Source of the DNA: Thermoanaerobacterales bacterium
GTDB taxonomy: Bacteria > Bacillota > Desulfotomaculia > Desulfotomaculales > JASEER01
Length of the DNA stretch: 45,599 nt
Reading direction: 5' to 3'
NCBI GenBank assembly: GCA_030019475.1
Contig: JASEER010000019.1
Location: forward strand, 1 to 45,599
Position 1 is the first letter of the stretch. Each line of letters begins with the position of its first letter. A program made the position numbers and the translations under genes. The notes under the pieces are model-generated. The model saw only the letters and a list, made by a program, of their open reading frames with translations, ran no database searches and was not told the origin of the DNA. This document shows, in pieces, positions 5,602-42,079 of the stretch.

Positions 5602-5644
5602 CCAATCACCGCCGCGTTTCCGTCCCGGCCCCCGCCGGCTCCGC

Positions 5645-8025: not shown

Positions 8026-8166
8026 AGTCTCTCCCCTCCCTTAACCTTTTTCGTCGTGTTTGTGTCGCTTTCTCCCCGGCCTGTAGAAGAACTATCCCTC
8101 CTTCCACGCGGTGATGGCGTTGCTGCAGAAATAGCAGTATCTTTAGAGAGAAAAGACGTTTATAAT

Positions 8167-8185
8167 GTATACTATCAGAGTATAC
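8167..8185. promoter_or_regulatory. Dyad operator in the cydA/rrf2 divergent region
   Basis: Perfect 7-bp inverted repeat GTATACT-ATCAG-AGTATAC. It lies a few bases downstream of the expected cydA transcription start and overlaps a TATAAT-like hexamer (8161-8166) reading toward the Rrf2 gene. Its size fits an operator for a dimeric winged-helix protein, and the adjacent Rrf2 protein is the obvious candidate. That link is inferred. Confidence 0.6.
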
Positions 8186-8199
8186 TTTTGTTGTGTTTT

Positions 8200-8228
8200 A
8201 ATATATTCCAAGCGGCTCTCAATGTCAA
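8200..8228 (-). promoter_or_regulatory. Sigma-A promoter of cydABDC
   Basis: On the minus strand TTGACA (8228-8223), a 17-base spacer and TATATT (8205-8200) form a near-consensus vegetative promoter aimed at cydA. It leaves a leader of about 165 bases that contains the 8167-8185 dyad. Confidence 0.8.
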
Positions 8229-8266
8229 TAGTGCAGGGGAGTTTTCCCAGAGGGGTGGAGGAAGGA

Positions 8267-8764
8267 ATGATACTGAACCGGGCCACCGACTACGCCTTCC
8301 GGGCGGTCCTGTACCTGTCGCTGTTACCTGCGGGGCAGGTGGTGGAGGGCAAAACAATCAGTGAAGACGAACGTATACCGATGCGTTTTGTGCTTAAAAT
8401 CCTGCGCACCCTTAGTCAGGCCGGCATTGTGCGGTCCCACCGGGGAGTGAAGGGCGGTTACTCCCTGGCGCGGCCGCCGGCCGAGATAACCATGCTGGAT
8501 GTCATCGAAGCGATGGAGGGCCCGGTAAGGCTTAACCGTTGCCTGATATCCCCCGAGGAGTGCAACAAGAGGTTTACCTCCAAATGCCCCGTTCACCGGG
8601 CCCTTTACGCCGCGCAGCAGGCCTTGAGGGATCAGTTCCGGCGCTACAACTTTGAGATGCTGGCCGCGCCGCTGCGGCAACCCGGCGCCCCCGCCGCGCC
8701 GCCGTCCGGTTCCCCGCCGGACAAGCTGCCTACCGGATCCGGTCCCTCGGCAGGGCGGCCTTGA
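8267..8764 (+). CDS. Rrf2-family transcriptional regulator, probable Fe-S sensor
   Basis: A 165-residue DNA-binding protein of the Rrf2 family (IscR, NsrR, CymR relatives). The winged helix-turn-helix is near the N-terminus (RATDYAFRAVLYLSLL, then IPMRFVLKILRTLSQAGIV and the wing SHRGVKGGYSLARP). Three cysteines follow in C-x6-C-x7-C spacing (RCLISPEECNKRFTSKC), the arrangement that binds a [2Fe-2S] or [4Fe-4S] cluster in this family. The ATG at 8267 was chosen because a GGAGGAAGG site precedes it and the protein then begins at the family norm. The proline-rich tail after about residue 135 is low-complexity. It is divergent from cydABDC and its last 35 bases overlap the 3' end of trpA tail-to-tail. 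It likely senses oxygen, NO or redox state and controls cyd. Confidence 0.9.
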   Translation: MILNRATDYAFRAVLYLSLLPAGQVVEGKTISEDERIPMRFVLKILRTLSQAGIVRSHRGVKGGYSLARPPAEITMLDVIEAMEGPVRLNRCLISPEECNKRFTSKCPVHRALYAAQQALRDQFRRYNFEMLAAPLRQPGAPAAPPSGSPPDKLPTGSGPSAGRP

Positions 8765-9530
8765 GTTCCCGCGTTAGACCGGCCACGCGGGCTGTCATGT
8801 CCGGCCCGCCCCCGGCCACCTCCCGGACGATGGCCGTGCCCACCACGATCCCGTCGGCCAGGGTCCCGACCTCCGCGGCCTGGGCCGGCGTGGCGACCCC
8901 GAAGCCGACCACGACAGGCACGGAACAGGCCTGCCTCGCCCTGGCGGCGAGTCCGCGGACCTCTTCAGGCCGCTGCCGCGCCCCGGTAACCCCTGTCACC
9001 GCGACACAATACAGGAAACCGCGCGCCGATGCGGCTATGCGCCGCAGACGGGCTGGTGTCGAGGTGGGAGCGGCCAGGGGAATGAGGGCCAGTCCTTCCC
9101 GGTCGGCCGCGGCCAGGAGCGGGCCGGCTTCCTCGACGGGCAGGTCCGGGACGATCAGCCCGTCGGCGCCGGCGGCGGCCGCCTCCCGGGCGAAACGGTC
9201 AAGGCCGGACTGGTAGATGGGGTTGTAGTAGCTCATCAGGACCAGCGGCAGCTCGACATCCTCCCGCAGAGCGCGTACCGTTTCCAGAATGCCGCGCAGG
9301 GTCACGCCCCCGTCCAGGGCCCGCTGGGAAGCCTGCTGGATCACGGGACCGTCGGCGACCGGCTCGGAGAACGGGACCCCGAGTTCAATGATGTCCGCTC
9401 CCGCCCCGGCCATGGCCCGCACCAGGGCGGCGGTGGTTTCCAGGTCGGGGTCCCCGGCGGTGATGAACGTGATCAGCGCCTTCTCGCCCCGTTCCCGAAG
9501 CCCGTTGAATGTTGCTTCAATACGGCGCAT
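8730..9530 (-). CDS. trpA: Tryptophan synthase alpha subunit
   Basis: Cleaves indole-3-glycerol phosphate to indole and glyceraldehyde 3-phosphate; indole is channelled to TrpB. The 266-residue TIM barrel shows the catalytic Glu in ELGVPFSEPVADGP and the Asp of VADGP. In other bacteria the first motif reads ELGIPFSDP. Phosphate-binding loops GFGVATPAQA and the loop-6 region VTGVTGAR are present. It starts at an ATG 36 bases after trpB. It is the last gene of trpEGDCFBA and its 3' end overlaps the convergent Rrf2 gene by 35 bases, leaving no room for a conventional terminator between them. Confidence 0.96.
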   Translation of the reverse strand: MRRIEATFNGLRERGEKALITFITAGDPDLETTAALVRAMAGAGADIIELGVPFSEPVADGPVIQQASQRALDGGVTLRGILETVRALREDVELPLVLMSYYNPIYQSGLDRFAREAAAAGADGLIVPDLPVEEAGPLLAAADREGLALIPLAAPTSTPARLRRIAASARGFLYCVAVTGVTGARQRPEEVRGLAARARQACSVPVVVGFGVATPAQAAEVGTLADGIVVGTAIVREVAGGGPDMTARVAGLTRELKAALPRDRIR

Positions 9531-9566
9531 CCTAAACCCTCCGTATCAGGTCATGTGCTCTGTGCC

Positions 9567-10763
9567 TTACGGTTTACTTCCCGCGTCCGTTGAGATCACC
9601 CGACGGACGGTCTCAACGTCTTTGTCGCCCCGGCCGGAGAGGTTGACCAGGATCACCTTGTCCGGGTCGAGTTCGGCGGCCAGACGGACGGCCTCCGCCA
9701 GGGCGTGGGCGCTCTCCAGGGCGGGGATGATCCCTTCGGTGCGGCTCAAGAGACTGAAGGCTTTGAGGGCCTCGGCGTCGGTCGCCGAGGTGTAGGTCAC
9801 GCGGCCCGTGTCCTTCAGGTAGCTGTGCTCCGGCCCCACGCCGGGGTAGTCCAGGCCGGCCGAGATGGAGTGGGCGATGAGGATTTGCCCGTCCCCGTCC
9901 TGAAGTGCGTAGCTCAGGGAGCCGTGGAGCACCCCCGGCCGGCCGGCGGCGAGGGTCGCCGCGTGCGCCCCCGTGTCCAGCCCGTGCCCGGCGGCCTCGA
10001 CGCCCACCAGCCGCACGTCGTCGTCCAGGAAGGCGGAGAAGACGCCCATGGCGTTGCTCCCGCCCCCGACGCAGGCCATGACGTAATCCGGCAGGCGCCC
10101 GAGGGCGGCGAGGGACTGCTCCCGCGCTTCCCGCCCGATGACGGCCTGGAAGTCGCGGACGATCATCGGGTAAGGGTGTGGGCCGGCGACCGAGCCGATC
10201 AGGTAGTGGGTGTCCCGGACGGTGGCCACCCAGTCGCGCAGGGCCTCGTTCATGGCGTCCTTCAGGGTGCGGCTGCCGGTGGTCACCGGGATGACGCGGG
10301 CGCCGAGGAGTTCCATGCGGAAGACGTTGAGGGCCTGCCGGCGCATGTCCTCCTCGCCCATGAAAATGTCGCAGGCCATGTCGAAGAGGGCCGCCGTGGT
10401 GGCCGTGGCCACCCCGTGCTGACCGGCGCCGGTCTCGGCGATCAGGCGGCGCTTGCCCATGCGCCGGGCGAGCAGGGCCTGCCCGATGGTGTTGTTGATC
10501 TTGTGCGCCCCGGTGTGGTTCAGGTCCTCCCGTTTGAGGTAGATCCGGGCGCCGCCGACGTGCCCGGTCAGGTGGCGGGCGTAATAGAACGGGCTCGGGC
10601 GCCCTATGTACTCTCTCCCGTAGTGTTCGATCTCGGCCGCAAAGGCCGGGTCGTTGCGGGCTTCCTTGTAGGCCGCCTCCAGCTCTTCCAGGGCGGGCAT
10701 CAGGGTCTCGGGGACGAACCGGCCCCCGTAAGGGCCGTAGTAGCCGCGCTCATTAGGGAGCAT
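9567..10763 (-). CDS. trpB: Tryptophan synthase beta subunit
   Basis: PLP enzyme that condenses indole with serine to give tryptophan. At 398 residues it is a standard TrpB1. The PLP lysine is Lys88 in [10 protein letters not shown]; the catalytic Glu lies in AETGAGQHG, and the phosphate-binding loop is [10 protein letters not shown]. The COMM-domain region and the C-terminal SGRGDKD motif are intact. Its ATG immediately follows the trpF stop codon (TAA-ATG), so the genes are coupled. Confidence 0.97.
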
Positions 10764-11375
10764 TTAACACGTCCCTCCTTTAGCGTTGCGGATAAAGGCC
10801 CGGATTTGGTCGTGATCTTTGGCGCCGCCGGTTTCCACCCCCGAGGATACGTCCACGGCCCAGGGGCGGACGGCGGCGATGGCCGCGGCGACGTTCTGCG
10901 GCGTCAGGCCCCCGGCCAGAATCAAAGGGCGGCGCCAGTGCAGATCCCGGAGCTTCTCCCAGTCCAGGGCGTGTCCCGTGCCCCCCGCCCGGCCGGGGAC
11001 GAAGGCGTCCACCAGGACGGCCTGAACATTGTAGCGTTGAATGCCGGCCAGGTCCTCCGGGCCGCGGAAACGCAGAGCTTTAATAACCGGGCGGTCGAAC
11101 GAGGCGCAGTAGTCCGGGGGCTCGTCGCCGTGGAACTGGAGCGCCTGCAGGCGGCAGCGGGCGGCGACGGCCCGCACCGTTTCCGCGGGGGCGTTGACGA
11201 AGACGCCGACCGTGCAGACGAAGGGGGGCAACCCGGCGATAATCGCCCGGGCCGCCTCCGGCTCGATATAGCGAGGGCTGGGGGCAAAGACGAACCCCAG
11301 CGCGTCGGCGCCGGCTTCCACGGCGGCCCGCGCCGAGGCCTCGTCCCGCAGGCCGCAGATCTTCACCCGGACCAT
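10764..11375 (-). CDS. trpF: Phosphoribosylanthranilate isomerase
   Basis: Converts N-(5'-phosphoribosyl)anthranilate to the 1-deoxyribulose form by an Amadori rearrangement. The 203-residue protein has the N-terminal VKICGLRDE with the general-base Cys7, the general-acid Asp in AVLVDAFVPG, and the phosphate-binding motifs LAGGLTPQNV and DVSSGVETGGAKD. It is a stand-alone enzyme, not fused to TrpC as in enterobacteria. Its ATG lies three bases after the trpC stop. Confidence 0.97.
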   Translation of the reverse strand: MVRVKICGLRDEASARAAVEAGADALGFVFAPSPRYIEPEAARAIIAGLPPFVCTVGVFVNAPAETVRAVAARCRLQALQFHGDEPPDYCASFDRPVIKALRFRGPEDLAGIQRYNVQAVLVDAFVPGRAGGTGHALDWEKLRDLHWRRPLILAGGLTPQNVAAAIAAVRPWAVDVSSGVETGGAKDHDQIRAFIRNAKGGTC

Positions 11376-11378
11376 CCT

Positions 11379-12155
11379 TTATGCCTCCATCCCGCTAAGC
11401 TTGCGAACAGCGGCCGCGATGTCCGGGGAGGCCATCAGGGCCTGCCCGACCAGGACGGCGTCCGCGCCTGCGCGGGCGGCCGCCAGTGCCTGCTCCCGCG
11501 TGGCGATCCCGCTGGCGGCGACCAGGGTGATGTCCCGGGGAACCAGGGGGGCGAGGCGGGGGAAGGTTCCGGGGTCGCACCGCATTGTCTTCAGGTTGCG
11601 GTTGTTGACGGCCAGCAGTGTCGCCCCTACGTCCAAGGCCTGCGACAGTTCCCGCTCATCGTGGACCTCGACCAGGGCCTCTATTTCCAGGGAGCGCGCC
11701 ACTTCCAGCAGTTCGCGCAGGCCGCCGGCGTCCAGGGCGGCGACGATGAGCAGGACCGCGTCCGCTCCCAGAGCCCGGGACTCGTAGACCTGGTAGGGAC
11801 TGATGATGAAATCCTTCCGCAGGACGGGCAGGCCGGCGGCTTCACTGACGGCAGGCAGGTGGCTCGGGTGCCCCCGGAAAAAGGGCGTGTCGGTCAGCAC
11901 CGATACAGCCGCCGCACCGTTTTCCTCGTAGATGCGCGCCACGGCCGCGGGGTCGCCCACGGGGCGGATCGACCCCGCGGAAGGGGATGCCCATTTGATC
12001 TCGGCGATCAGCGCCGGAGCGGGTCTTTGCCGCAAGGCGGCGGCAAAGGGCCGGGGCGGGCGCGGGCGCTTTTGCTGCAACAGATTCTCCAGGGGATGAC
12101 TGATTTCCCTTTCGGCGACCTCGAGCCGCTTATGCGCCAGGATTTCCGCAAGCAC
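11379..12155 (-). CDS. trpC: Indole-3-glycerol phosphate synthase
   Basis: Closes the indole ring: CdRP to indole-3-glycerol phosphate. The (beta-alpha)8 barrel contains the catalytic lysines and acids in ALIAEIKWASPSAG, FFRGHPSHLP, LRKDFIISPYQVYES and LLAVNNRNLKT, with the phosphate loop AASGIATREQ. The start was set at a GTG (12155) preceded by GGGAGGG. The frame continues open upstream through trpD but that part has no TrpC similarity. The resulting 258 residues match the usual length. It overlaps the 3' end of trpD by 26 bases. Trp in EIKWASPS replaces the more common EIKKASPS (second Lys), a position worth a check. Confidence 0.93.
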   Translation of the reverse strand: MLAEILAHKRLEVAEREISHPLENLLQQKRPRPPRPFAAALRQRPAPALIAEIKWASPSAGSIRPVGDPAAVARIYEENGAAAVSVLTDTPFFRGHPSHLPAVSEAAGLPVLRKDFIISPYQVYESRALGADAVLLIVAALDAGGLRELLEVARSLEIEALVEVHDERELSQALDVGATLLAVNNRNLKTMRCDPGTFPRLAPLVPRDITLVAASGIATREQALAAARAGADAVLVGQALMASPDIAAAVRKLSGMEA

Positions 12156-13170
12156 CTTGAAGCCCTCCCGTGAAAGCGATAAACTCCTCCATCTTGGCCA
12201 TCGCGGCTCCGCTGTCAATGGCCCCGGCGGCCAGGCCGACGGCGTGCGCCAGGTCCTCCGCGGCGCCGGCCGCCAGCAGGGCCAGGGCGGCGTTAAAGAC
12301 CACGGTGTCGCGCCGCGGTCCGGTTTCTCCGGCCAGGACGCGGCGCGTGATCGCGGCGTTGGCGGCCGGGTCCCCGCCCACGAGCGCTTCCAGCGGAGCC
12401 GGGGCGAAGCCCAGTTCGGCCGGGTCAATGACGCGGTACGCCACTTCGTCCCCTACGACCTCCCAGACCTGGGCCGGGCCCACGGAGGAGACTTCGTCAA
12501 GCCCCCCGGCCCCATGTACCACAAAGGCGTGATCGGTGCCGAGGCGGGCCAGGACCTGGGCGACCAGGGCCGCCGCTTCAGGGCTGTAAACGCCGAGGAC
12601 CTGCGCCTGGGGGCAGGCGGGGTTGGTCAACGGGCCCAAAATGTTGAAAACGGTGCGGATACCGATTTCCCGCCGGGGCCCGGCGGCATGGCGCATGGCA
12701 TGGTGCAGGCGGGGGGCGAACAAAAACGCCAGCCCGACCTCGTCGAGACAACGTCCCAGTTCCCGGGCGTCCAGCTCCAGGTCGGCGCCCAGGGCGCGCA
12801 GGAGGTCGGCGCTCCCGCAGCGGCTGGAGACCGAGACGTTGCCGTGCTTCGCCACGGGAACCCCCGCCGCCGCCACGACAAAGGCGGCTGTGGTGGAAAT
12901 GTTGAAGGTGTGCCGGCCGTCGCCCCCGGTGCCGCAGGTGTCGACGACGAAGGGACGGCCGGTGTGGACGGGGGTGGCGTGGCGGCGCATTGACCGGGCA
13001 AACCCGGCCACCTCGTCCGGGGTTTCCCCTTTTAAACGCAGGGCGGCGAGCAGGGCGCCCACCTGGGCCGCCGTGGCCTCCCCGGACATGATCTGGGTCA
13101 TCACCTCCTCGGCCTCCTGCTGGCTGAGGTCCTCACCGGCGATAATCCTGGCTATGGCTTCCTTGATCAT
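12130..13170 (-). CDS. trpD: Anthranilate phosphoribosyltransferase
   Basis: Transfers phosphoribose from PRPP to anthranilate. The 346-residue protein has the PRPP-binding glycine-rich motif [18 protein letters not shown], the [15 protein letters not shown] segment that binds substrate and Mg, and [10 protein letters not shown]. The ATG at 13170 was preferred because a GGGAGGAG site lies before it and the protein then begins MIKEAIARI; an ATG 21 bases upstream is in frame but lies within that site. It overlaps the end of trpG by 38 bases and the start of trpC by 26 bases. Confidence 0.95.
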
Positions 13171-13759
13171 CTCGTCTCCTCCCATCTCCACTGTGCAAGA
13201 AGTTATTCAGAAGCTGTTTGCCGCCCTCGGTAAGAATGGACTCCGGGTGGAACTGGACCCCTTCAACGGCGAACTCCCGGTGTCTCAAGCCCATGATCAG
13301 CCCGTCGGGGGCGCGGGCGCTGACTTCCAGGCAGGCCGGCAGGGAAGACTCCTCCACGACGAGCGAATGGTAGCGGGTTGCCGTAAACGGGTTCGACAGG
13401 CCGTGAAACACGGTGCGGCCGTCGTGCGAAATCAACGAGGTCTTGCCATGGGCCGGGGCCGGGGCGCGCACGACCCGTCCCCCGAAGGCCTGCCCGATCG
13501 CCTGGTGGCCGAGGCACACGCCCAGGATCGGAACCCGCCCGGCCATCTTGCGGATCAAGTCGAGGCAGATGCCCGCCGTCGACGGAGAGCCCGGGCCCGG
13601 GGAGAGGACGATGCGGGACGGCGCCAGCTTCCTGACCTCGGCGAGGTCGAGGCTGTCGTTGCGCCGGACGACGACCTCCGCCCCCAGGCCGCGGATGTAG
13701 TCGACCAGGTTGTAGGTAAAAGAATCGTAGTTGTCGATCATCAGCAGCACGGGGTTCAT
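13133..13759 (-). CDS. trpG: Anthranilate synthase component II (glutamine amidotransferase)
   Basis: Class I glutamine amidotransferase that supplies ammonia to TrpE. It begins [12 protein letters not shown] after four residues, typical of TrpG/PabA. The oxyanion loop is SPGPGSP and the catalytic triad is Cys in [12 protein letters not shown], with His and Glu in [10 protein letters not shown]. The ATG at 13759 lies four bases after the trpE stop. A longer open frame upstream is shadow of trpE. About 208 residues; the last dozen are polar and overlap the trpD start. No separate pabA was seen, so it may also serve folate synthesis. Confidence 0.95.
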
Positions 13760-13763
13760 CAAC

Positions 13764-15221
13764 TCACTTTCCGATGGCCTGGACCAGGGCGGCGGCCTTG
13801 TGAGAGACCTCCTGGAATTCCCTGTCCGGGTCGGAGTCGGCGACAATGCCGGCCCCGGCCTGGACGTAGGCCGTCCCGTCCTTGATCACCAGCGTGCGGA
13901 TGGCGATGCAGGTGTCGAGGTCGCCGGAGAGGCTCAAGTAGCCCACCGCTCCGGCATAGATACCCCGCCTTTCCGGTTCCAGTTCTTCAATGATCTCCAT
14001 GGCCCTGATCTTCGGCGCCCCGCTGACCGTGCCGGCCGGGAAGGCCGCCGCCAGGGCATCGAGGGCGTCGAAACCGGGCGCCAGTTGCCCCTCCACCTCG
14101 GAGGTGATGTGCATGACGTGGGAGTAGTACTCCACTTCCATTAACTGATTGACGCGCACCGAACCCGGAAGGCAAACGCGGGCCAGGTCGTTGCGGCCCA
14201 GGTCGACCAGCATCACGTGCTCCGCGCGTTCCTTGGGATCGGCCAGGAGTTCGGCGGCGAGGGCCGCGTCCTCGGCGGCGTCCCGCCCGCGCGGCCGCGT
14301 GCCGGCGATGGGCCTGGTGAAGACACGGTCGTTTTCCACCCGGATGAGCATTTCGGGGGAGGCGCCGAGGATGACGTGGTTCCCCGCGTCCAGGTAGAAC
14401 ATGTACGGCGAGGGGTTGAGGCTGCGCAGATGCCGGTACACCGTCAGCGGGGCCTCCCTCAAGGGTGCGGAGACGCGGCGGGAGAGCACGGCCTGCAGGA
14501 TGTCCCCGGCCAGGATGTACTCCTTCGCCCGGCGGACCATCGACGCAAACCGGACGTGGTCTTCTCCGGGTCGCAGGGCGGCCGGAGGCCGTTCCCACGT
14601 CTCGGGCGGTGAAACGCCCACCGGCCGGGCCAGCAGTTCCCGGACGGCGGCAATGTCCCGGCACCCCGCGTCAAATGTTTCCGCCGGATCTCCCTCGACG
14701 GGGGCGTTGTGGACGACCGTCAGGGTATGGCGGAGATGGTCGAAGACCAGGACGGTCCTGGGGAACAGGAAGAAACCGTCTGGCAGGCCGAGGTCGTCGG
14801 GGTTGGCGGCCGGGAGCCGCTCCAGGTAACGCACAAAGTCGTAGGCCAGATAGCCCACGGCGCCGCCGTGAAAGCGCAGCGGCCGGGGGAAGGGGGCGGA
14901 GCGATAACGGGCCATCAACCCGCGCAGGACGTCAAGCGGGTGCCCGTCGAGAGCGGCTGCCTGCCCGTCCTTCCCGCTGAGGACTGACTGTCCGTCCTTG
15001 ATGCGCAACTCCCAGGCGGGATCAAGGCCGATGAAGGAGTAGCGGCCCATCCTTTCGCCGCCCTCGACGCTTTCAAGAAGGAAGGCCACTTTGCGCGTAG
15101 CGGAAAGCTTCTGAAACACCGAGATCGGCGTCTCGGTGTCCACCAGCCATTCCTCTGCCAGGGGAATGATGTTATATGTCCGGGCGAATTCCCGGAACTC
15201 TTCGTACCGGGGATAAATCAA
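13764..15221 (-). CDS. trpE: Anthranilate synthase component I
   Basis: Makes anthranilate from chorismate with ammonia from TrpG, the committed step of tryptophan synthesis. Residues near the N-terminus carry LLESVEGGE, the tryptophan feedback site, and the chorismate-binding domain has [41 protein letters not shown] and the C-terminal [15 protein letters not shown]. The TTG start at 15221 was chosen because it follows the SD GGGAGGGG by eight bases and lies beyond the leader terminator; it gives a 485-residue protein starting [10 protein letters not shown] longer in-frame start at 15314 would run through the terminator hairpin and is unlikely. First gene of trpEGDCFBA, controlled by attenuation in the leader. 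Confidence 0.94.
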
Positions 15222-15239
15222 GGCCTTTACCCCTCCCGC

Positions 15240-15278
15240 AAAAACAAAAAGCCGATACTCAGCATGGCGAGCATCGGC
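15240..15278 (-). terminator. trp leader attenuator (intrinsic terminator)
   Basis: On the minus strand GCCGATGCTC and GAGTATCGGC form a 10-bp stem with one G-U pair and an 8-base loop, followed directly by TTTTTGTTTTT. It sits between the leader and the trpE ribosome site, so read-through must be regulated for the operon to be expressed. Confidence 0.88.
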
Positions 15279-15291
15279 CCAGGTGACAGCC

Positions 15292-15355
15292 TTACTCCGC
15301 TCCGCTAAGCTCAATCCTCGTTCCCCCTGGGGGAACCCCTCATCTCGTCTGGCTA
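15292..15355 (-). promoter_or_regulatory. Candidate TRAP-binding (G/T)AG repeat array in trp leader
   Basis: Reading toward trpE, triplets occur as TAG, GAG-2-GAG, then a small perfect hairpin (GTTCCCCC-A-GGGGGAAC), then GAG-4-GAG-2-TAG-2-GAG-2-GAG, where the digits are spacer lengths. TRAP in Bacillus binds about eleven GAG/TAG triplets spaced by two or three bases just upstream of the trp attenuator. The position and spacing fit, although the array is shorter and interrupted. No tryptophan-rich leader peptide and no T-box motif were found. Confidence 0.5.
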
Positions 15356-15376
15356 AACCTATTTAGTTGCCAGAAA

Positions 15377-15405
15377 CAGTAACATGCCGGACAAGGGGTT
15401 GTCAA
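15377..15405 (-). promoter_or_regulatory. Probable trp operon promoter
   Basis: Minus-strand TTGACA (15405-15400) with a weak -10 (TTACTG or TACTGT) 17-18 bases on. The -35 lies in a GGGGTTG-T-CAACCCC dyad (15395-15409), a possible operator. The -10 is poor, so the call is moderate. Confidence 0.45.
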
Positions 15406-15484
15406 CCCCATCAGTACTGTAAATATGCAGGCTGATTTGTCCGTTAACGGGCCGCGGCGGGATTAATTCTATAAGAATGCGGCA

Positions 15485-15514
15485 ATCCGAACGCCGCCCA
15501 ACGGCGTCTATATA
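15485..15514. repeat. 30-bp hairpin repeat, copy 1
   Basis: A 30-bp sequence containing ACGCCG-CCCAA-CGGCGT recurs at 16278-16307 with one mismatch. Copy 1 abuts the IS-end fragment exactly (15514/15515). Confidence 0.85.
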
Positions 15515-15562
15515 AAACCCACCTTAAACTCGATCAAAAATGTGTCCTGACAATGGGGTCCA
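15515..15562. mobile_element. Solo IS3-like terminal repeat
   Basis: These 48 bases match the terminal repeat at 455-502 in inverted orientation at 44 of 48 positions. There is no transposase beside it: the side where the element body should be is occupied by the 30-bp hairpin repeat. It is a scar left by deletion or by a miniature derivative, lying just upstream of the small gene at 15614. Confidence 0.8.
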
Positions 15563-15613
15563 TCTCAGTTTTGTTTACTCTAAAAAGGTGGTAACCCAGA
15601 AAGGATGACTTGC

Positions 15614-16102
15614 ATGAAAAGAGTTATTGCCGGAGTAGCCCTGGTTTGTATCGTCTTTGCCGGAGGTTACTGGACGGGTAGAGCTGTGGTTCCGCCAAAA
15701 GAGAGAATCGTGGTGGAAATACCCCAGAAAGAACCAGAGAACTTACAATCATTGTTGTCTGAGACGCTTCCAGAAATTGATCGCCGCATTACCGAGAACT
15801 ATGGTCAGGATGTAGGTGATTTCTGTGCCTGGGCCGAAGCAATGCATCAGGAGTTTGTCAATTACCACCAGGTTTTCCGCAAGATGTTTCCCCAGGACGT
15901 AATTGAGACTGATCCTCTTCTTAGAGAAATCGATGAGGCTTACATGAAATTAATTGATGTTACTAGGCTTACCTATCTTGGCAATGGCCGCTACGGGACA
16001 AACAAAGAGTTGAAACCTCAGTGCACTGTAATTAGAAACACCCTGAATGACGCGTTAAACAAGCTGGCCAACCCGGACCTTGCAGCGAAATATGATCGTT
16101 AG
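15614..16102 (+). CDS. Hypothetical membrane-anchored protein
   Basis: About 162 residues: an N-terminal signal-anchor (MKRVIAGVALVCIVFAGGYW), then a hydrophilic, largely helical extracytoplasmic region rich in Glu, Asp and Asn, with two cysteines. Nothing in it matches a family I know. The ATG at 15614 is preferred over the in-frame ATG at 15605, because AGAAAGG sits at proper distance only from the former. Codon use is A+T-richer than the flanking operons. The frame ends at TAG (16100-16102) and remains open for 23 more codons to TAA at 16172-16174, so the protein may have lost its C-terminus by a nonsense change. An IS-end fragment lies just upstream, where the promoter would be. Confidence 0.6.
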   Translation: MKRVIAGVALVCIVFAGGYWTGRAVVPPKERIVVEIPQKEPENLQSLLSETLPEIDRRITENYGQDVGDFCAWAEAMHQEFVNYHQVFRKMFPQDVIETDPLLREIDEAYMKLIDVTRLTYLGNGRYGTNKELKPQCTVIRNTLNDALNKLANPDLAAKYDR

Positions 16103-16277
16103 AAGGAGTTGCCGGCTAAGTACCAGCGAGGTATGCTGGCTGCCGTGACCAGAGTGGAGGGGTTATACAACTAAGCTTCTCCCTTGACTGCCGGATGCGA
16201 TTGGGCTGCATCCGTGCCAGATACGGGTAATGGTTTCGATGGGGCGCCGGCTCCCAAAACCTGCACTTTTGGCCACT

Positions 16278-16307
16278 ATCCGAACGCCGCCCAACGGCGT
16301 CTACATA
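16278..16307. repeat. 30-bp hairpin repeat, copy 2
   Basis: Second copy of the 15485-15514 sequence, one base different, with the ACGCCG / CGGCGT stem intact. It lies 36 bases before the next gene. Confidence 0.85.
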
Positions 16308-16343
16308 TTAGAATTTGAGGGAGAGTGAGAGGGGGAAGGTGAG

Positions 16344-17216
16344 ATGTTCTCCCGGCTTGGACGTCAATTAAAATGGGCGGCGCTGCTTGCGGCCCTGATC
16401 CTGGCGCTTGCCGGACCGGGGAGCGGCATGGCCAGTTATATAGCCTTGACCGACGAGCAGGCTTTTCACTCGGCCGATATCGTGGCCAGGGGAATGTTTG
16501 TGGAAAGATCCGCACCCAAGTCAATCGCTTTTATGGTCGACGGAAAGCGCAAGGAGGCCGTGGTCCGGGACTACACTTTCAGAGCGTCGGAAGTCTACAA
16601 GGGTAAAATCGCCCTCACGGGAGATACGGTAACAGTACGCTGCCTGGATCCCACAAGCCCGTTACAGGTGGCGGCCGAACAGTTCCACCCCGAATTGAAC
16701 CGGGAAATGGTCGTGCTTCTTTGCCCGTCGATGTTCACGGAACGGGGTGAACGGGGCGTTTATATGTTTCTGGGAGGTCCCGCGGGCGTTTACGGGATCA
16801 ACGAAAGCCTGGTCGAGAATGTCCGGTGGAGCGAACCAAAACCGGCGGGAGACTTTATCAGTCAACTGACCGCCTGGTCCAACCGGGTCCCGGCGCACCC
16901 GCGTACGTCCTCGGGGGACAATGCCTTACTAACCCTGTTGTTTTGGCCGGCGATCACTCTCTCATTAATCCTGGCCGGAGCCGGCATCGTTTGGCGGCGG
17001 CCGGTCCTGCTCATCACCGGAGCGGTATTGTCCCTGCCCTTCTCGTATTACCTGTTCATGACCCCGCGTTTCCACCTCATTGGCCCTCTCCTGCCCCTCT
17101 GCCTGTTGGGCGGAGCCCTGGCGGTCCACCGGCGGAGACCCTGGCCGGCCTGGCTGTTATTGGCGGCGGTGGCGGGCTTCTTCGGATGGCTGGGAGCGCT
17201 CGTATTGGGGCAGTGA
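16344..17216 (+). CDS. Secreted/membrane protein with extracytoplasmic domain and C-terminal helices
   Basis: A 290-residue protein of unknown function. A signal peptide (AALLAALILALAGPGSGMAS) is followed by about 170 extracytoplasmic residues. Within them, SADIVARGMFVERSA and YTFRASEVYKGKI resemble the repeated pattern of secreted beta-barrel domains of the NTR/TIMP-like sort, but this is only an impression. The C-terminal 90 residues form three or four hydrophobic helices with short basic loops. The ATG at 16344 follows GGGGGAAGGTGAG. The next gene, a zinc-ribbon membrane protein, starts 39 bases later, so the two may form a small operon. Confidence 0.7.
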   Translation: MFSRLGRQLKWAALLAALILALAGPGSGMASYIALTDEQAFHSADIVARGMFVERSAPKSIAFMVDGKRKEAVVRDYTFRASEVYKGKIALTGDTVTVRCLDPTSPLQVAAEQFHPELNREMVVLLCPSMFTERGERGVYMFLGGPAGVYGINESLVENVRWSEPKPAGDFISQLTAWSNRVPAHPRTSSGDNALLTLLFWPAITLSLILAGAGIVWRRPVLLITGAVLSLPFSYYLFMTPRFHLIGPLLPLCLLGGALAVHRRRPWPAWLLLAAVAGFFGWLGALVLGQ

Positions 17217-17255
17217 ATCAGCTCTGTCGGGAATGGCGCGAGAGGATGTTTTCGA

Positions 17256-17507
17256 ATGGATGTGCCGGAAGAACTCTGTCCCTACTGCGGGGGCCCGGTG
17301 ACCGAAAACGGCATCTGCAGGGAGTGCGGGAGCCGCGGCAACCCTAACGCGCAGATTTACGACCCGATCGAGGGTGCCTGGCAGCAGGGCCGCGCTCTGC
17401 GCCGGCTTGGGCGGTTCGGCAAGGTTGTAGCCGCCGTCTTTCTGCTCGAGATCCTATATCTGATCATCACTTCGTTAGTAGAGGTGATACAAGCCGTTCG
17501 GGCATAG
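17256..17507 (+). CDS. Zinc-ribbon single-pass membrane protein
   Basis: An 83-residue protein with an N-terminal zinc ribbon (CPYCGGPVTENGICRECGS: two CxxC pairs) and a C-terminal hydrophobic helix (VVAAVFLLEILYLIITSLV). Such proteins are common in Firmicutes and usually have no known function; the ribbon would lie in the cytoplasm at the membrane. The ATG at 17256 follows GAGAGGA. It lies directly downstream of the 290-residue membrane protein. Confidence 0.7.
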   Translation: MDVPEELCPYCGGPVTENGICRECGSRGNPNAQIYDPIEGAWQQGRALRRLGRFGKVVAAVFLLEILYLIITSLVEVIQAVRA

Positions 17508-17601
17508 GTCACAGGCAGGATCGAGAGGCGTTCGTACCGTCCGGGAGAGAGTTGTTTTTAAGGTCCTCGGTTATTCCACGCCGCTACTGCACTTCACGGC
17601 T

Positions 17602-17727
17602 ATGCTGTTTGTGTACCGGGGGCGGAAACGGTTGGGGGTATTGGCGCTGTTACCTTATCTGGCGGTAGTACTATACTTCGGGGCGGCGGTGATTGCGGAA
17701 TCGCTCGGGTACTACCCAGGCAGGTAG
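17602..17727 (+). CDS. Possible small hydrophobic protein or gene remnant
   Basis: The frame from ATG 17602 to TAG 17725-17727 encodes about 41 residues (MLFVYRGRKRLGVLALLPYL onwards) with one hydrophobic helix. The frame is open upstream to about 17506 without a start that has a ribosome site, and those residues are also plausible protein. It may be the end of a decayed membrane-protein gene. Function unknown. Confidence 0.3.
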   Translation: MLFVYRGRKRLGVLALLPYLAVVLYFGAAVIAESLGYYPGR

Positions 17728-17752
17728 AAGCTCAAAGCATTAGGCATTAAAG

Positions 17753-17781
17753 AAGGGTCAGCCCTTGGGGGGCTAACCCTT
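17753..17781. terminator. Hairpin at end of the 52-residue gene
   Basis: A 12-bp stem with one mismatch (AAGGGTCAGCCC / GGGCTAACCCTT) and a 5-base loop. It spans the stop codon of the minus-strand small gene and could serve as a terminator in either direction. The T-run is weak. Confidence 0.45.
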
Positions 17782-17931
17782 GAACTCGACGTTGGTACCG
17801 GCGCGCTCGGCGATCTCGTCCGGGTTCTGCCCGGTGGTGATCTCCTCGCCGCCCCGGGCCGGCGTTCCGATCACGCTTTCAAAGGCCGTGGTCCGCGGCC
17901 TTTCTGCTTTCTTGTCATTCTTCTTAGGCAT
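17773..17931 (-). CDS. Small conserved-looking hydrophilic protein, 52 aa
   Basis: Encodes a 52-residue, strongly charged protein starting MPKKNDKKAERPRTTAFESV and containing GQNPDEIAERAGTNVEFKG at its end. The ATG at 17931 is preceded by AAAGGAGGTGG, close to a perfect ribosome site, which strongly supports translation. The frame is open further upstream but without a ribosome site. It has no hydrophobic segment and no cysteines, and is probably a soluble or disordered cytoplasmic protein. Strong translation of a small basic protein is reminiscent of spore or stress proteins, but the sequence does not show a SASP motif. Function unknown. Confidence 0.6.
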   Translation of the reverse strand: MPKKNDKKAERPRTTAFESVIGTPARGGEEITTGQNPDEIAERAGTNVEFKG

Positions 17932-18087
17932 TCGCCCACCTCCTTTCGGCTTTAGCTTGCCTGGAACAGTCTGCCCTATGAGTGGCAATGCCTGGGCGGG
18001 ACTGGTAAATTTCAGGGCGCGGGGATAGAATACTGTTATGGAAACTGTAATTAAGGTGTCCGAATTCGTCGGAAGGAGGCGGGGGCC

Positions 18088-36739: not shown

Positions 36740-38236
36740 GTGGATTTGGCAAAATTCATGGCGAATATCTTTAAGGCGGAAGATATTGCCACACTGTCCG
36801 AACTGGGCCGTCTAGTGGACGACGACTCCGGCCGGCACTGGGACGGCCTTCAAAACGCACTTGATCTTTCGGATCGCAAAATGGACGAAGCCGTACGCTC
36901 CCAACTGGTTGCGTCGATTCTCGGAGCCCTGGAGCTTTCTTACGACGGAATCTGGATCACGGACCGGCATGGCCGCACAATCTATGCCAACCAAGCCAGC
37001 CGCCAGTTCTACGACGCTGCTCCCGAGGAAATTATCGGGCGTAATGTAGATGATCTTATCGCAAAGGGCTATTTCGACGTTTGCGCCTCCCGCGACGCGG
37101 CCAACAAGCGGGCGGTTGTTTCACGCGTCATCCGTAGCAGAACGGGCAGGGAACTGCTGGTTACGGCGAAGCCCGTCCTTAGCGGGACAGGGGATGTGGC
37201 TTACGTCATCTCCAACGTACGGGATATTACACGATGGCAGACCCGGGAGGAGGATGGCGCGGGCGGTGAAGGCTACCCTAACTTTATGAGGCGCTACGGC
37301 ATCGTCTTCACCGAGGACAGCCCGCTGGTCGATGTGGCGAAAGCGGCCTCACGCGTCGCCAAGACCGACTGCACCGTTCTCCTTGAAGGTGAATCCGGGG
37401 TGGGTAAAGAGGTTTTTGCCAGGTTTATCCATCAATGTTCCGCCCGCTGCGACGGGCCTTTTGAAGCGGTAAACTGCGGGGCCATTCCCGAAACCCTGTT
37501 CGAGTCCGAGATGTTCGGCCATCAGAAGGGTGCCTTCACCGGGGCGCTCGTGGCGCGAGCCGGAGCGTTTGAAAGGGCGCAGGGCGGCACACTGTTTCTG
37601 GATGAAGTGTCTGAGATTCCCCTCACCCAGCAGGTTAAACTTCTTAGGGCCATCCAGGAAGGGGAAGTCAGGCGGCTGGGAAGCAAAGCGCCTGTCAAGT
37701 TAAACGTAAGGATTATTGCCGCCACCAACAGGAACCTCGCGGCTTATGTAAAGGACGGCCGGTTCAGGGATGACCTGTATTACCGTTTGAACGTCGTTCC
37801 CTTGTATATTCCTCCTGTCAGAGAGCGGAAAGGCGATATTGCCCTGCTATTGGAAACCATTCTGTCGCAATTCAACCATAAGTACGGATGCAATAAACTC
37901 CTTTCCCCGGATGCTATACAAGCTCTCCTTGCCTATGCATGGCCGGGTAACGTGCGAGAGATGATTAACCTCATCGAAAGACTGGTGATAATAAGCCCGG
38001 GGAACGTGATCAGGCTTGTGGATCTGCCCGAGCATATTAGCCGGCAACCCGGCGGGGTTTCCCGCGAGGGCGGTATTGAATCGCTAAAGGACGCGATGGA
38101 AAATGTGGAAAAGAAAATGCTCCTTTTAGCGCTAAAGCGTTACGGCAGTTCAAGAAAAGCCGCCAAAGCGCTGAAGGTCACCCATTCCACTATTTGCCGC
38201 AAGGCGAAAAAGTACGGTCTGCCGCTCGACCAATAG
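36740..38236 (+). CDS. Sigma-54-dependent transcriptional activator (PAS, AAA+, Fis-type HTH)
   Basis: A 498-residue enhancer-binding protein. A PAS domain fills about residues 55-165 (LELSYDGIWITDRHGRTIY). The AAA+ domain follows with Walker A GESGVGKE (217-224), the sigma-54-contacting GAFTGA loop (264-269), Walker B GGTLFLDEV (282-290), and the arginine-finger region FRDDLYYRLNV. A Fis-type HTH closes it (SSRKAAKALKVTHSTICRKA). There is no receiver domain, so the PAS domain probably senses a small molecule or redox state itself. GTG start at 36740 behind GAGGGGGG. It is convergent with the amidohydrolase/MFS operon, which has a -24/-12 promoter, and is its likely activator. Confidence 0.93.
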   Translation: MDLAKFMANIFKAEDIATLSELGRLVDDDSGRHWDGLQNALDLSDRKMDEAVRSQLVASILGALELSYDGIWITDRHGRTIYANQASRQFYDAAPEEIIGRNVDDLIAKGYFDVCASRDAANKRAVVSRVIRSRTGRELLVTAKPVLSGTGDVAYVISNVRDITRWQTREEDGAGGEGYPNFMRRYGIVFTEDSPLVDVAKAASRVAKTDCTVLLEGESGVGKEVFARFIHQCSARCDGPFEAVNCGAIPETLFESEMFGHQKGAFTGALVARAGAFERAQGGTLFLDEVSEIPLTQQVKLLRAIQEGEVRRLGSKAPVKLNVRIIAATNRNLAAYVKDGRFRDDLYYRLNVVPLYIPPVRERKGDIALLLETILSQFNHKYGCNKLLSPDAIQALLAYAWPGNVREMINLIERLVIISPGNVIRLVDLPEHISRQPGGVSREGGIESLKDAMENVEKKMLLLALKRYGSSRKAAKALKVTHSTICRKAKKYGLPLDQ

Positions 38237-38653: not shown

Positions 38654-39499
38654 CTACTCAAGTTTAAACAGGCGGGCTGCGTTATCCCACAGCACCTTCC
38701 GCAGGACGTCGTCCCTGAACGGCAGCTTGGTGAACTTCTCGACCGTCGGTTTTAACTGCGCGAAGGGGTGCGCGGAGGCGAACAGGACCTTGTCGCCCAG
38801 AATGCTGTTGGCGGCCTCCACAATGAGCTTGGCCCCGGGGAGGAAGTGGTATACCGAGGTCTCGAAGTACACGTTGTCGTGCCTGAAGGCGATGGCGATC
38901 ATTTCGTAGGTGAAGGGCCAGCCCCCGTGGGAGCATACGATCTTCAACGTGGGGAAGTCCGTCGCCACTTCGTCCACCGGCATCGGGGAACCGTAGCTGA
39001 GATAGGTTCCGCCGACCGGCAAGGGGCCGATGGTAATGAACACCGGCACGTCCAGTTCGGCGCACTTCTGGTAGATCGGGTACATCCGGCGGTCATTGGC
39101 GTACATGTTGGCCCCGAACGGGTCCATCGAAACGCCTTTGAGTTTCAGTTCGTTAATGGCCCGCTCCACTTCGGTGACCGCCGCCGGTCCCTTGTTGGGG
39201 TCGATACCGGCCAGGCCGATGATGCGGTCGGGATACCGGTTCATTATCCGGGCGACGTAGTCGTTGGTGACCTTCCAGGCCGAGGTGGACTCAATGTCCC
39301 GCCCGGTGCAGACCACCTTCGAGATGCCGGCTTCGTCCAGGTCGGCGATGAACTCCTCCAGCGTCCCCACGGGCGGCAGCGGGTTCCCCGACTTCTCGAA
39401 CACCTTCTTAATCGCGGCGCCGTCCAGCAGGGAGTGGTACTCGGGCGTGTTGGGCCTCGCCCGGCAGTCCAGGATCTTGTAGTTGCCATTGTTGGACAT
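38654..39499 (-). CDS. Amidohydrolase-fold (Amidohydro_2) protein lacking canonical metal ligands
   Basis: A 281-residue TIM-barrel protein of the Amidohydro_2 type (relatives include decarboxylases and lactonases). Expected family order is visible: N-terminal strand, LIGLAGIDP-like IIGLAGIDPNKGPAA, LKLKGVSMDP, VFITIGP, IVCSHGGWPFTYEM and FASAHPF. But the N-terminal HxH or ExH metal motif is RAR (DCRARP, residues 11-16), the strand-5 His is replaced (FITIGP), and the terminal Asp (normally SDxP) is missing (SAHPF). Only the HGG histidine remains. The same changes appear in its paralogue at 40872. Start ATG 39499 behind AAGGAGGG. Reaction unknown; possibly metal-free catalysis or a binding role. 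Confidence 0.85.
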   Translation of the reverse strand: MSNNGNYKILDCRARPNTPEYHSLLDGAAIKKVFEKSGNPLPPVGTLEEFIADLDEAGISKVVCTGRDIESTSAWKVTNDYVARIMNRYPDRIIGLAGIDPNKGPAAVTEVERAINELKLKGVSMDPFGANMYANDRRMYPIYQKCAELDVPVFITIGPLPVGGTYLSYGSPMPVDEVATDFPTLKIVCSHGGWPFTYEMIAIAFRHDNVYFETSVYHFLPGAKLIVEAANSILGDKVLFASAHPFAQLKPTVEKFTKLPFRDDVLRKVLWDNAARLFKLE

Positions 39500-39545
39500 C
39501 GTTTTTTACCCTCCTTAGAAAAGTTGTTCCGTGAATTACCAAGCG

Positions 39546-40838
39546 CTACTGAACGATCTCCTCCAGCACTTTGCCCTTGGTCTCAGGCGCAAAGGCCAGA
39601 CCTATTAACGCCCACAGCCAGGTCAGGCAGGCCAGGGCGATGGCCATTCCATAGCCGACCTGTACGGCAAGCGCGCCGATGGCCCACGGCCCGCCCACGG
39701 AGATGATGCGGCCGATCTGGGGAGCCAGGGTTGTTCCGGTACCGCGCAGCCTGGTGGGGAAGAGCTCGGGATAGTACACCGTGAACCCGGAATAGATCCC
39801 GAGGGTTCCGAACCCGGCGAGGATGCCGCACAGGTACAGCCAGAAGGGGCTCGGGGCCCACAGCATGTACAGGGGGGTGAATATGGCGCTTAGCAGGATG
39901 TACAGCAGGAAGGTCGGCTTCCGGCCGATGCGGTCCGCGATCGGCCCCCAAACCAGGTAACCGATGCCGGCCCCGATGTTGAAGACCACAAACCAGGTAC
40001 TGCTCTTAACGATGTCAAATCCTCTCTCCTGAACGAGGAACGCGGCGGCGAAGGTCAGGATAGCCCAGCAGACGATCAGTTCGGCCGAGGTCATCGCCGC
40101 ACCGATGGCGACGTGCTTGACGAGCTTGGGCTCCTTGAAGAGCTGGCTGACGGTGTTGGGCACCGCTTCGCCTTGGGCCTTTAGCTCTTCGCGGCGCTGC
40201 TTCTCCCGGGTGAAGCGCGCGGTCTCCTTCACCGTGCGCCGGATGTAGAGCACCAGCAGGGCCGGAACCAGACCCGCCAGGAAAACGGCACGCCACCCCC
40301 AGAGAGGTTCGACGACCATCACTACCAGAGAACCCAGGATGCTGCCCCAGGCCCAGCAGCTCTGCATAACGCTGCCGCACTTGGAGCGGTGTTTCGCGGG
40401 CCACGTTTCGGCGATAAGCGTCGCCGCCACGGCCCACTCGCCGACACACCCGAAACCGGTGAAGAAACGGAAGACCGCGAGTGACTGCCAGCTCCAGGCC
40501 ACGGCGCATAAGCCCGTTGACACGGCGTAGATGCTAATGGTCAGCATCAGGGCGTTCCTCCGGCCGATGTAATCGGCCAGGATGCCACACAGAATCCCGC
40601 CGAACACCTGGCCTAAAAGGAAGATGGTGACCATCAACCCGCCGGTTACGGCGCTGATCCCGAACTCCGCCATGATCTTTGGCAGGACCAAGACGAAGAG
40701 GATGGAATCCATGCCGTCAAAGACGTAACCGGCAACCGCGGTGTACATTATTTTCCACTGGTAGGGCGTAATCTTTTCGGTTTCGCCCTCCAGTTCCGTT
40801 ATGACCGGTGCAGCTACTTGTCCCGTAGTATCAGGCAT
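39546..40838 (-). CDS. MFS transporter, aromatic acid/organic acid symporter-like
   Basis: A 430-residue major facilitator protein with twelve hydrophobic segments. TM1 has FDGMDSILFVLVLP, similar to the DGxD motif of the aromatic acid:proton symporter (AAHS) group. The loop 2-3 signature GILADYIGRRNAL and its repeat GPIADRIGRKPTF are intact, as is the GFGCVGEWAVAATLIAE segment. The ATG at 40838 follows GGAGGTGATC, an ideal ribosome site. It lies between the two amidohydrolase-fold genes in the sigma-54 operon and probably imports their substrate, plausibly an aromatic or other carboxylic acid. Confidence 0.9.
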   Translation of the reverse strand: MPDTTGQVAAPVITELEGETEKITPYQWKIMYTAVAGYVFDGMDSILFVLVLPKIMAEFGISAVTGGLMVTIFLLGQVFGGILCGILADYIGRRNALMLTISIYAVSTGLCAVAWSWQSLAVFRFFTGFGCVGEWAVAATLIAETWPAKHRSKCGSVMQSCWAWGSILGSLVVMVVEPLWGWRAVFLAGLVPALLVLYIRRTVKETARFTREKQRREELKAQGEAVPNTVSQLFKEPKLVKHVAIGAAMTSAELIVCWAILTFAAAFLVQERGFDIVKSSTWFVVFNIGAGIGYLVWGPIADRIGRKPTFLLYILLSAIFTPLYMLWAPSPFWLYLCGILAGFGTLGIYSGFTVYYPELFPTRLRGTGTTLAPQIGRIISVGGPWAIGALAVQVGYGMAIALACLTWLWALIGLAFAPETKGKVLEEIVQ

Positions 40839-40871
40839 AACCCTTGATCACCTCCACTGCCGGATAGCTTA

Positions 40872-41708
40872 TTAGGTAGCCAGGTCGAGTCCAAGCAGTT
40901 GGGCGGCGTTCTCGTACATCACCCTCCGCCGCACCTCATCCTTGAAGGGCAGATTGTCCCAGGTACGCAGGCACTTTCTGAAGTTGACAAACGGGTGTGC
41001 GCTGGCATACAGAAGTTTCTTGTCAATCAGGCCGTCGTTCGCGGCTTTGACATAGAGATCCGAGCCGGGCATGGTTTCGTAGGCCGAGATCTCGAAGTAC
41101 ACGTTACGGTTTCTTAAGGCGACCGTAATCATCTCGGCGACCCAGGGATAGCCGCCGTGGCTCACGATGATCTTCAGTTCGGGGAAGTCGCGGGCCACAA
41201 AGTCGACGTAGCGCGGCGCGACATGGTCGATGACCGCGCCGGGCACAAACGCGCCGGGGCCGGCCGTGATTTCCACCGGTACACCCAGTTCCGTGCATTT
41301 CGCATAAATTGGGTAGTACCTTGCGTCGTTGCAGTACATCTGATGCATGTAGGGGTCAACCGACACGCCGGCCAGGCCCAGTTCGGTAACGGCACGCTGT
41401 ATTTCACGAACGGCGGCCATCCCTTTCCACGGGTCTGCTCCCGCGAATCCAATGAACATATCGGGGTGCTTGTTGACGATCTCCGCGATGTGGTCGTTAG
41501 TGACCTTCCAGCCGTAGGTGGTTTCCAGGTCGCGTCCCTGGACGACCGCCTTGGTGATCCCTTCTTCGCGGAGCGCGACAGCCAGTGTGTCCAGGTCCTC
41601 TGTTTCGGTCCTGAAATCCAGCCACTGCATCATTCCCTTGAAAACCCGGTTCTCCGCCACCGACACCAGTTCCGGAGTCGATGGACGAACTCGAAAGTCG
41701 ATAATCAA
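40872..41708 (-). CDS. Amidohydrolase-fold (Amidohydro_2) protein lacking canonical metal ligands, paralogue
   Basis: A 278-residue paralogue of the protein at 38654, similar along its whole length. It has DFRVRPSTPE at residues 4-13 in place of the HxH motif, VEITAGP on strand 5, IIVSHGGYPWVAEM and YASAHPFVNF. The same three metal-ligand positions are therefore changed as in its partner. Shared sequence includes a conserved RDxExTxxWKVTND segment (RDLETTYGWKVTND here). TTG start at 41708 eight bases after AGAGGT. It is the first gene of the operon and is preceded by the sigma-54 promoter at 41831-41846 with a 112-base leader. The pair may form a heteromer or act on related substrates. Confidence 0.85.
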   Translation of the reverse strand: MIIDFRVRPSTPELVSVAENRVFKGMMQWLDFRTETEDLDTLAVALREEGITKAVVQGRDLETTYGWKVTNDHIAEIVNKHPDMFIGFAGADPWKGMAAVREIQRAVTELGLAGVSVDPYMHQMYCNDARYYPIYAKCTELGVPVEITAGPGAFVPGAVIDHVAPRYVDFVARDFPELKIIVSHGGYPWVAEMITVALRNRNVYFEISAYETMPGSDLYVKAANDGLIDKKLLYASAHPFVNFRKCLRTWDNLPFKDEVRRRVMYENAAQLLGLDLAT

Positions 41709-41979: not shown

Positions 41980-42017
41980 GTTAGAGCCGTGGTGCGTTAA
42001 CGCACCACGGCTCTAAC
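41980..42017. promoter_or_regulatory. 38-bp perfect palindrome, candidate enhancer site
   Basis: GTTAGAGCCGTGGTGCGTT is followed directly by its exact complement, 19 + 19 bp without a loop. It is centred about 178 bases upstream of the expected sigma-54 start, a normal distance for an activator site. A pair of inverted heptamers (TGTTACA 41922-41928, TGTAACA 41972-41978) lies next to it, 50 bp centre to centre. It could instead be a bidirectional terminator or another element. Confidence 0.55.
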
Positions 42018-42054: not shown

Positions 42055-42079
42055 TACAGGCCGGAAAAACCGGCCTGTA
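42055..42079. repeat. Hairpin in the 42-kb intergenic region
   Basis: TACAGGCCGG-AAAAA-CCGGCCTGTA, a perfect 10-bp stem. Function unknown. The intergenic region 41709-42272 holds no convincing gene: only the sigma-54 promoter, the palindrome and this hairpin. Confidence 0.6.

Follow-up and report, generated by a model that had tools for sequence, protein, structure and literature searches.

Gene organization of the AH1-AH2 operon

A 45,599-nucleotide stretch of DNA from a Thermoanaerobacterales bacterium (the window; contig JASEER010000019.1 of assembly GCA_030019475.1) contains an operon for two paralogous Amidohydro_2 proteins, AH1 and AH2, and a transporter of the major facilitator superfamily (MFS). 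Both proteins have a D-x-R-x-R-P sequence (RxR) in place of the HxH metal motif of the family. The operon, its promoter region, and the adjoining regulator gene have the following features.

40872-41708, minus strand: AH2, RxR-type Amidohydro_2 protein, 278 residues, TTG start
39546-40838, minus strand: MFS transporter between AH1 and AH2, 430 residues (MFS_1, E = 4e-49)
38654-39499, minus strand: AH1, RxR-type Amidohydro_2 protein, 281 residues
38190-38534, minus strand: 114-residue protein that contains a hydrophobic segment and ends in a Cys-rich region resembling a zinc ribbon; the operon's last gene
36740-38236, plus strand: sigma-54 activator, 498 residues (PF00158, E = 7e-68; PAS_9; HTH_50)
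41846-41831, minus strand: sigma-54 promoter TGGCACATTTCTTGCA, exact -24/-12 consensus, about 120 nucleotides upstream of the AH2 start
41980-42017, no strand assigned: perfect 38-bp palindrome GTTAGAGCCGTGGTGCGTT/AACGCACCACGGCTCTAAC, about 135-170 bp upstream of the promoter

An earlier reading of this DNA from its letters (the original prediction) had placed both amidohydrolase-like reading frames correctly and quoted their motifs exactly. It also named the MFS protein as a partner, and the AH1-MFS gene order is indeed kept in a second genome, G059, where the transporter is 72% identical. The closest NCBIfam model to the MFS protein is the aromatic acid/H+ symport model TIGR00895, at 230 bits against a cut-off of 418, and identity to the MFS protein beside an RxR-SorAB gene set in Methylobacterium bullatum is 29%. 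In G059, the gene directly after the AH1 orthologue encodes a 35% identical homologue of the 114-residue protein, whose zinc-ribbon matches are weak and below cut-off.

The metal site is replaced in a concerted manner

AH1 and AH2 are 49% identical and match PF04909 (Amidohydro_2) with E values of 3e-38 and 1e-40 (132.7 and 140.8 bits; curated cut-off 26.4). The metal site of Amidohydro_2 enzymes consists of the HxH pair, a histidine on strand 5, and an aspartate on strand 8. AH1 has R13, R15, T156, and A243 at these positions, and AH2 has the equivalents. The AH1 motifs are D11-C-R13-A-R15-P-N-T-P-E, ITIGP, SHGG, and SAHPF, and those of AH2 are D-F-R-V-R-P-S-T-P-E, ITAGP, SHGG, and SAHPF.

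Homologues were aligned (n = 112; 34 RxR, 38 HxH, and 40 other proteins) and compared at the ligand positions. All four ligands are lost in 34/34 RxR proteins and retained in 38/38 HxH proteins. The strand-5 histidine position is T, M, S, or Q in every RxR protein, and the strand-8 aspartate position is A, S, G, V, or C. The exchange is all-or-none; therefore, the ligands are replaced and not shifted, which settles the check for a displaced HxH motif that the original prediction had asked for. The ligand change is a concerted exchange, neither decay nor a shifted motif, and the non-random loss that was claimed is reinforced by the same replacement across phyla.

The residue H191, the catalytic-type histidine of the HGG motif, is invariant in both the RxR and the HxH groups, as the earlier reading had noted for the two window proteins. 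The arginine-based site it suggested gains a third member: R67 is present in 33 of the 34 RxR proteins, whereas V, I, W, or T is the usual residue there in HxH proteins. An aspartate or glutamate at position 126 is a further RxR-typical addition. The polar pocket residues R13, R15, R67, D100, and H191 are nearly invariant across diverse phyla. R13, R15, and R67 together with H191 (AH1 numbering) probably take the place of the metal site and bind a small sulfonate or another strongly anionic group.

Loss of the HxH pair by itself is not unique to the RxR proteins. Other ligand-poor Amidohydro_2 groups exist, for example D-x-W-x-Q proteins that retain a TD/TN motif. Proteins with D-x-W for D-x-H and a strand-5 glutamine occur at loci L073 and L074 (Jordarchaeum and Freyarchaeota metagenome-assembled genomes (MAGs)), L035, L068, and L105, and D-x-W proteins form tandem pairs in two archaeal MAGs.

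AH1 and AH2 come from separate RxR subclades

A quick IQ-TREE phylogeny with SH-aLRT support, in which the Bordetella bronchiseptica protein BB4693 was entered as PDB 3irs residues 5-279, places all RxR proteins in one clade (support 99) with BB4693 inside. The distinct subfamily proposed earlier is recovered, and AH1 and AH2 carry its marks (D-x-R-x-R-P, R67, H191, a non-Asp residue on strand 8, and position within the clade). The 23 proteins of the IslA-cluster RxR subclade form the sister group of AH2 (support 99); almost all come from sulfite- or sulfate-reducing types of Bacillota and Desulfobacterota. AH1 lies outside that subclade; it groups with a 72% identical G059 protein and, at a deeper level, with proteins of plasmids and Rhizobiales. 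This topology rules out a recent tandem duplication as the origin of AH1 and AH2. Of the other genomes seen, G059 alone has an MFS gene (72% identical) flanked by two RxR genes, the second of which is of a third, distant type. Conservation of the two proteins as a pair is therefore not supported as a general feature.

The AlphaFold2 model of AH2 (pLDDT 94.9) has the TIM-barrel fold of the superfamily. The top Foldseek match is 3irs (TM 0.82), which is the closest solved relative by both sequence and fold; the other fold neighbors are decarboxylases (TM about 0.7) and the LigJ hydratase.

The AH2 clade accompanies IslA-type sulfite-lyases

A glycyl radical enzyme (GRE) and its activase are encoded near AH2 homologues. 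The GREs match the sulfopropanediol/isethionate-type lyase model at about 1580 bits (cut-off 1000), and their best PDB matches are 5ymr (IseG) and 7kq3 (IslA). TRAP or MFS transporters, a DsrE-like protein, TauE-type permeases, and sigma-54 activators are encoded at the same loci. The DsrE-like protein (113-115 residues; L033 10268-10615 and L029 16275-16616) is conserved in several IslA clusters; it was recognized by reading the sequence and has no NCBIfam match.

Co-occurrence was measured in 398 genomes drawn evenly from the phylum, with a threshold of at least 1300 bits for an IslA-like GRE. An AH2-clade gene occurs in 10 genomes, an IslA-like GRE in 10, and both in 9 (p = 1.6e-16), with the two genes no more than 10 kb apart in most genomes that have both. 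The exceptions are the window genome (AH2, no GRE) and G408 (GRE, no AH gene). An association with every sulfolyase-like GRE was considered and rejected: no AH gene lies near the GRE of G015 or the second copy in G431, divergent enzymes that score about 860-940 bits to 5ymr. The sulfite reductase gene dsrA is present in 11 of the 12 RxR genomes of the phylum compared with 55 of 398 overall (p = 1.5e-9).

The window genome (G000, 95.7% complete) has dsrAB and aprA; at this completeness it yielded no match to the sulfolyase GRE model NF048011 and no shell-protein match to PF00936. G059 and G398 have dsrA and no aprA above cut-off, and for this reason they probably reduce sulfite but not sulfate.

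RxR genes occur with other sulfite-yielding or sulfite-consuming enzymes

A separate RxR subclade adjoins ssuD, sfnG, msuE, and sulfonate ABC transporter genes in Azospirillum-type (two records), Methylocystis (three), and Aliarcobacter DNA. This SsuD-type subclade was found in 1 of 385 alphaproteobacterial genomes and is therefore rare. The same subclade is represented on a Methylobacterium bullatum plasmid (L124 3292-8676) in the order MFS-RxR-SorA-SorB-YeiH, with SorA and SorB above their curated cut-offs. The plasmid cluster is a compact transporter-to-sulfite-oxidation set without a known C-S lyase. The SsuD/SfnG/MsuE and SorAB contexts all produce or consume sulfite.

Two further loci, L028 (G059; 2711-14212) and L147 (G398; 9423-18062), carry RxR genes together with genes for BaiCD-like flavoproteins of the Old-Yellow-Enzyme type, sigma-54 activators, and MFS or TRAP transporters. 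They possibly encode another sulfite-yielding pathway that does without a GRE.

A C-terminal tail marks RxR proteins at microcompartment loci

The C terminus of ten AH2-clade proteins is extended by 34-56 residues that read as a loosely structured linker followed by an amphipathic helix resembling an encapsulation peptide (DLVGEIVREVMARLGR, MEKMIIESVIRELAKRGM, and similar). Shell-protein genes are present at 10 of 10 loci with tailed RxR proteins and at 1 of 28 with untailed ones (p = 2e-8). The AlphaFold2 model of one tailed protein consists of the barrel, a disordered linker (278-287), and a helix (287-304). The aldehyde dehydrogenase at two tailed loci begins with a near-identical N-terminal peptide, QIESIVREVLQQL or DIESIVSEVLKKL. 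These tail sequences suggest that in some bacteria the RxR protein is probably packaged with IslA and aldehyde dehydrogenase. The sole exception to the tail/shell pattern is L155 (G374; 9159-9995), where an untailed RxR protein lies beside shell genes and IslA is on another contig. AH1 and AH2 do not have the putative cargo tail; both stop at the end of the barrel.

Regulation and neighboring signals

The sigma-54 control anticipated in the original prediction is borne out by the exact -24/-12 promoter before AH2, the single match within the window at no more than one mismatch, a tolerance at which 1.2 matches are expected. Exact sigma-54 sites also lie close upstream of AH2 homologues at L029 and L045. 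The 38-bp palindrome is a candidate activator site. The window regulator shares 46% identity with its counterpart at the G059 locus and 40-42% with those at IslA loci. Its assignment as an IslR orthologue was rejected, as 40-42% is a generic level and the IslA-locus regulators share 62-65% identity with each other.

A strong terminator-like hairpin with a T-rich tail (42055-42079, minus strand) lies upstream of both the palindrome and the promoter, a position that would suit insulation of the operon. A T-box leader (RF00230; 42321-42579, plus strand; 53.5 bits, E = 7e-11) scores below the gathering score of 93, and the Rfam scan of the window at the gathering threshold, which misses it, gave no matches. 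It precedes branched-chain aminotransferase-like and dihydroxy-acid dehydratase-like genes.

Proposed function and alternatives

These contexts tentatively favor AH1 and AH2 as intact, metal-free enzymes of the RxR branch that would act in sulfite-yielding sulfonate catabolism, perhaps by cleaving aldehyde-bisulfite adducts. The parts of this proposal differ in strength. A sulfite or sulfonate role is likely for the AH2 clade, where the link to sulfite is well supported; the link is weaker for AH1, and extension of the role to the window operon is only slightly favored. Adduct (α-hydroxysulfonate) cleavage is the likeliest of the reactions considered, although in itself a doubtful proposal.

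The proposed chemistry starts from enzymes such as IslA, SsuD, and MsuD-type proteins, which release an aldehyde and sulfite together. Aldehydes and sulfite spontaneously form α-hydroxysulfonates, and therefore adducts form when IslA or SsuD releases both products. In the proposed reaction, a general base would split the α-hydroxysulfonate to aldehyde plus sulfite while arginines hold the sulfite; removal of the hydroxyl proton and a site for the leaving sulfite would suffice, and no metal would be needed. H191 or a neighbor would be the base, and R13, R15, and R67 would form the sulfite site. If true, adduct cleavage would remove a practical difficulty of these pathways, in which sulfite and aldehyde released side by side trap one another. 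The window and M. bullatum combine a transporter, an RxR protein, and sulfite use with no C-S lyase, and there the RxR protein could itself be the releasing step. The window transporter would import the compound, AH1 and AH2 would process it, the resulting sulfite would feed the cell's DsrAB pathway, and the sigma-54 promoter would control all of these genes. The full form of this scheme, an arginine-based, metal-free class that cleaves α-hydroxysulfonates, helps isethionate and alkanesulfonate desulfonation (in microcompartments in some bacteria), and in the window is itself the sulfite-releasing step of sulfonate respiration, is unlikely as a whole.

A count of loci speaks for the link to sulfite: of the 40 RxR loci, 27 encode IslA, SsuD, SfnG, or SorA, whereas none of the 75 loci of non-RxR relatives does. 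Several observations weigh against a general sulfonate role. The 40 loci were gathered via AH1 and AH2, with related loci over-represented and about 3 independent lines. The window locus has no C-S lyase, and the sulfonate link there would be one of homology and dsrAB only. BB4693-type RxR proteins adjoin other (tripartite) transporters. Purified IslA (IseG) yields acetaldehyde and sulfite in vitro without an AH-type protein (PMC6453916), and an AH-type step is therefore unneeded in vitro.

The AH1 subclade brings in a different set of neighbors. In Caballeronia these are genes for enolase-superfamily, FAH, and alpha/beta hydrolase proteins; a Rhizobiales MAG has an enolase-superfamily gene at the locus, and G059 has flavin oxidoreductases. 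These look like carboxylate catabolism. The window operon may accordingly handle an aromatic or short-chain carboxylate that is imported by the MFS protein, with the RxR proteins as metal-free hydrolases, lactonases, hydratases, or decarboxylases and the sulfonate link confined to the IslA and SsuD subclades. The best model for the transporter and the decarboxylases and LigJ hydratase among the fold neighbors agree with this alternative, which has a modest chance of being right. AH2 is nevertheless sister to the IslA clade, G059 and G398 probably reduce sulfite and not sulfate, and the M. bullatum cluster pairs MFS-RxR with sulfite oxidation. The carboxylated, aromatic-acid-type substrate of the original prediction accordingly loses ground: it depended on a transporter model matched far below its cut-off, and the context of AH2 points to sulfonate or sulfite.

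A non-catalytic protein that binds sulfite, sulfonate, or aldehyde as a sensor, buffer, or scaffold would explain why every metal ligand is lost and why the passages searched on IslA reconstitution in vitro (PMC6453916, PMC6386719) mention no such protein. This is improbable given the near-invariant R13, R15, R67, D100, and H191, and the association of different subclades with different pathways is a better fit to an enzyme. RxR proteins could instead act one step earlier, as metal-free hydrolases that free a small sulfonate from a conjugate such as an N-acyltaurine or acyl isethionate. The fold class fits such a role, the arginines suit a sulfonate-bearing leaving group, and co-occurrence with differing C-S cleaving enzymes would be accounted for. 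The shell-linked tail, however, would put the protein inside the compartment with IslA and aldehyde dehydrogenase, after TRAP uptake of free isethionate; the metal-bound water that the fold uses for hydrolysis is gone, and the M. bullatum MFS-AH-SorAB set is left unexplained, which makes conjugate hydrolysis quite improbable. Decay of ordinary amidohydrolases in the window genome, suggested by the ligand loss alone, is refuted by the identical replacement in Bacillota, Desulfobacterota, Pseudomonadota, and Campylobacterota, the intact frames, and the conserved operons.

Comparison with known systems

Respiration of isethionate and taurine by gut and sediment bacteria produces H2S. The gene clusters for these pathways have been described down to the shell proteins, and to our knowledge the amidohydrolase-like gene in them has no role. 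RxR genes mark an unassigned step of bacterial sulfur metabolism, and this step lies in a medically and ecologically relevant pathway. Searches of PMC6386719, PMC6453916, PMC4207490, PMC8217296, and PMC6325248 yielded no role for an amidohydrolase-like protein at isethionate clusters. The literature searched likewise held no description of a bacterial enzyme for hydroxymethanesulfonate or of the RxR motif, an absence that is weak evidence. The link to sulfite-releasing sulfonate metabolism is the stronger finding, and beyond a one-line annotation no report of it was found in the literature searched.

That annotation belongs to Bilophila wadsworthia, where the IslAB microcompartment cluster ends with HMPREF0179_00649, a "hypothetical protein, predicted amidohydrolase function" (PMC8667426). 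By position and annotation, this gene is like those at loci L042-L046, amidohydrolase-family genes in an IslAB cluster with shell genes. The Bilophila cluster has IslA and shell genes, whereas the window has neither. The IslAB/IseGH system (PMC6386719, PMC6453916) shares with the present genes the AH2 clade encoded alongside, sigma-54-type regulators, and sulfite-reducing hosts; it differs in its GRE, which the window genome does not have. The analysis also points out dsr-bearing bacteria that carry RxR genes and a transporter without a known C-S lyase.

Among characterized proteins, ACMSD, gamma-resorcylate decarboxylase, LigW, and the LigJ hydratase share the PF04909 fold and the conserved active-site histidine with AH1 and AH2. 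These enzymes have the metal site, whereas AH1 and AH2 are without any of its ligands. BB4693 (PDB 3irs and 3k4w) is more similar, with the D-x-R-x-R-P start, no strand-5 histidine, the HG histidine kept, and TAYP in place of SDxP. It belongs to another subclade and is about 29% identical to AH2, and its depositors call it an uncharacterized TIM-barrel protein. The earlier description of the system as undescribed thus stands in part: the subfamily has a solved member and the Bilophila annotation, and the literature searched assigns it no function. To what was known from BB4693 and Bilophila, the family gains a sequence signature, a concerted abandonment of the metal site, and a tie to sulfite-releasing reactions in unrelated bacteria.

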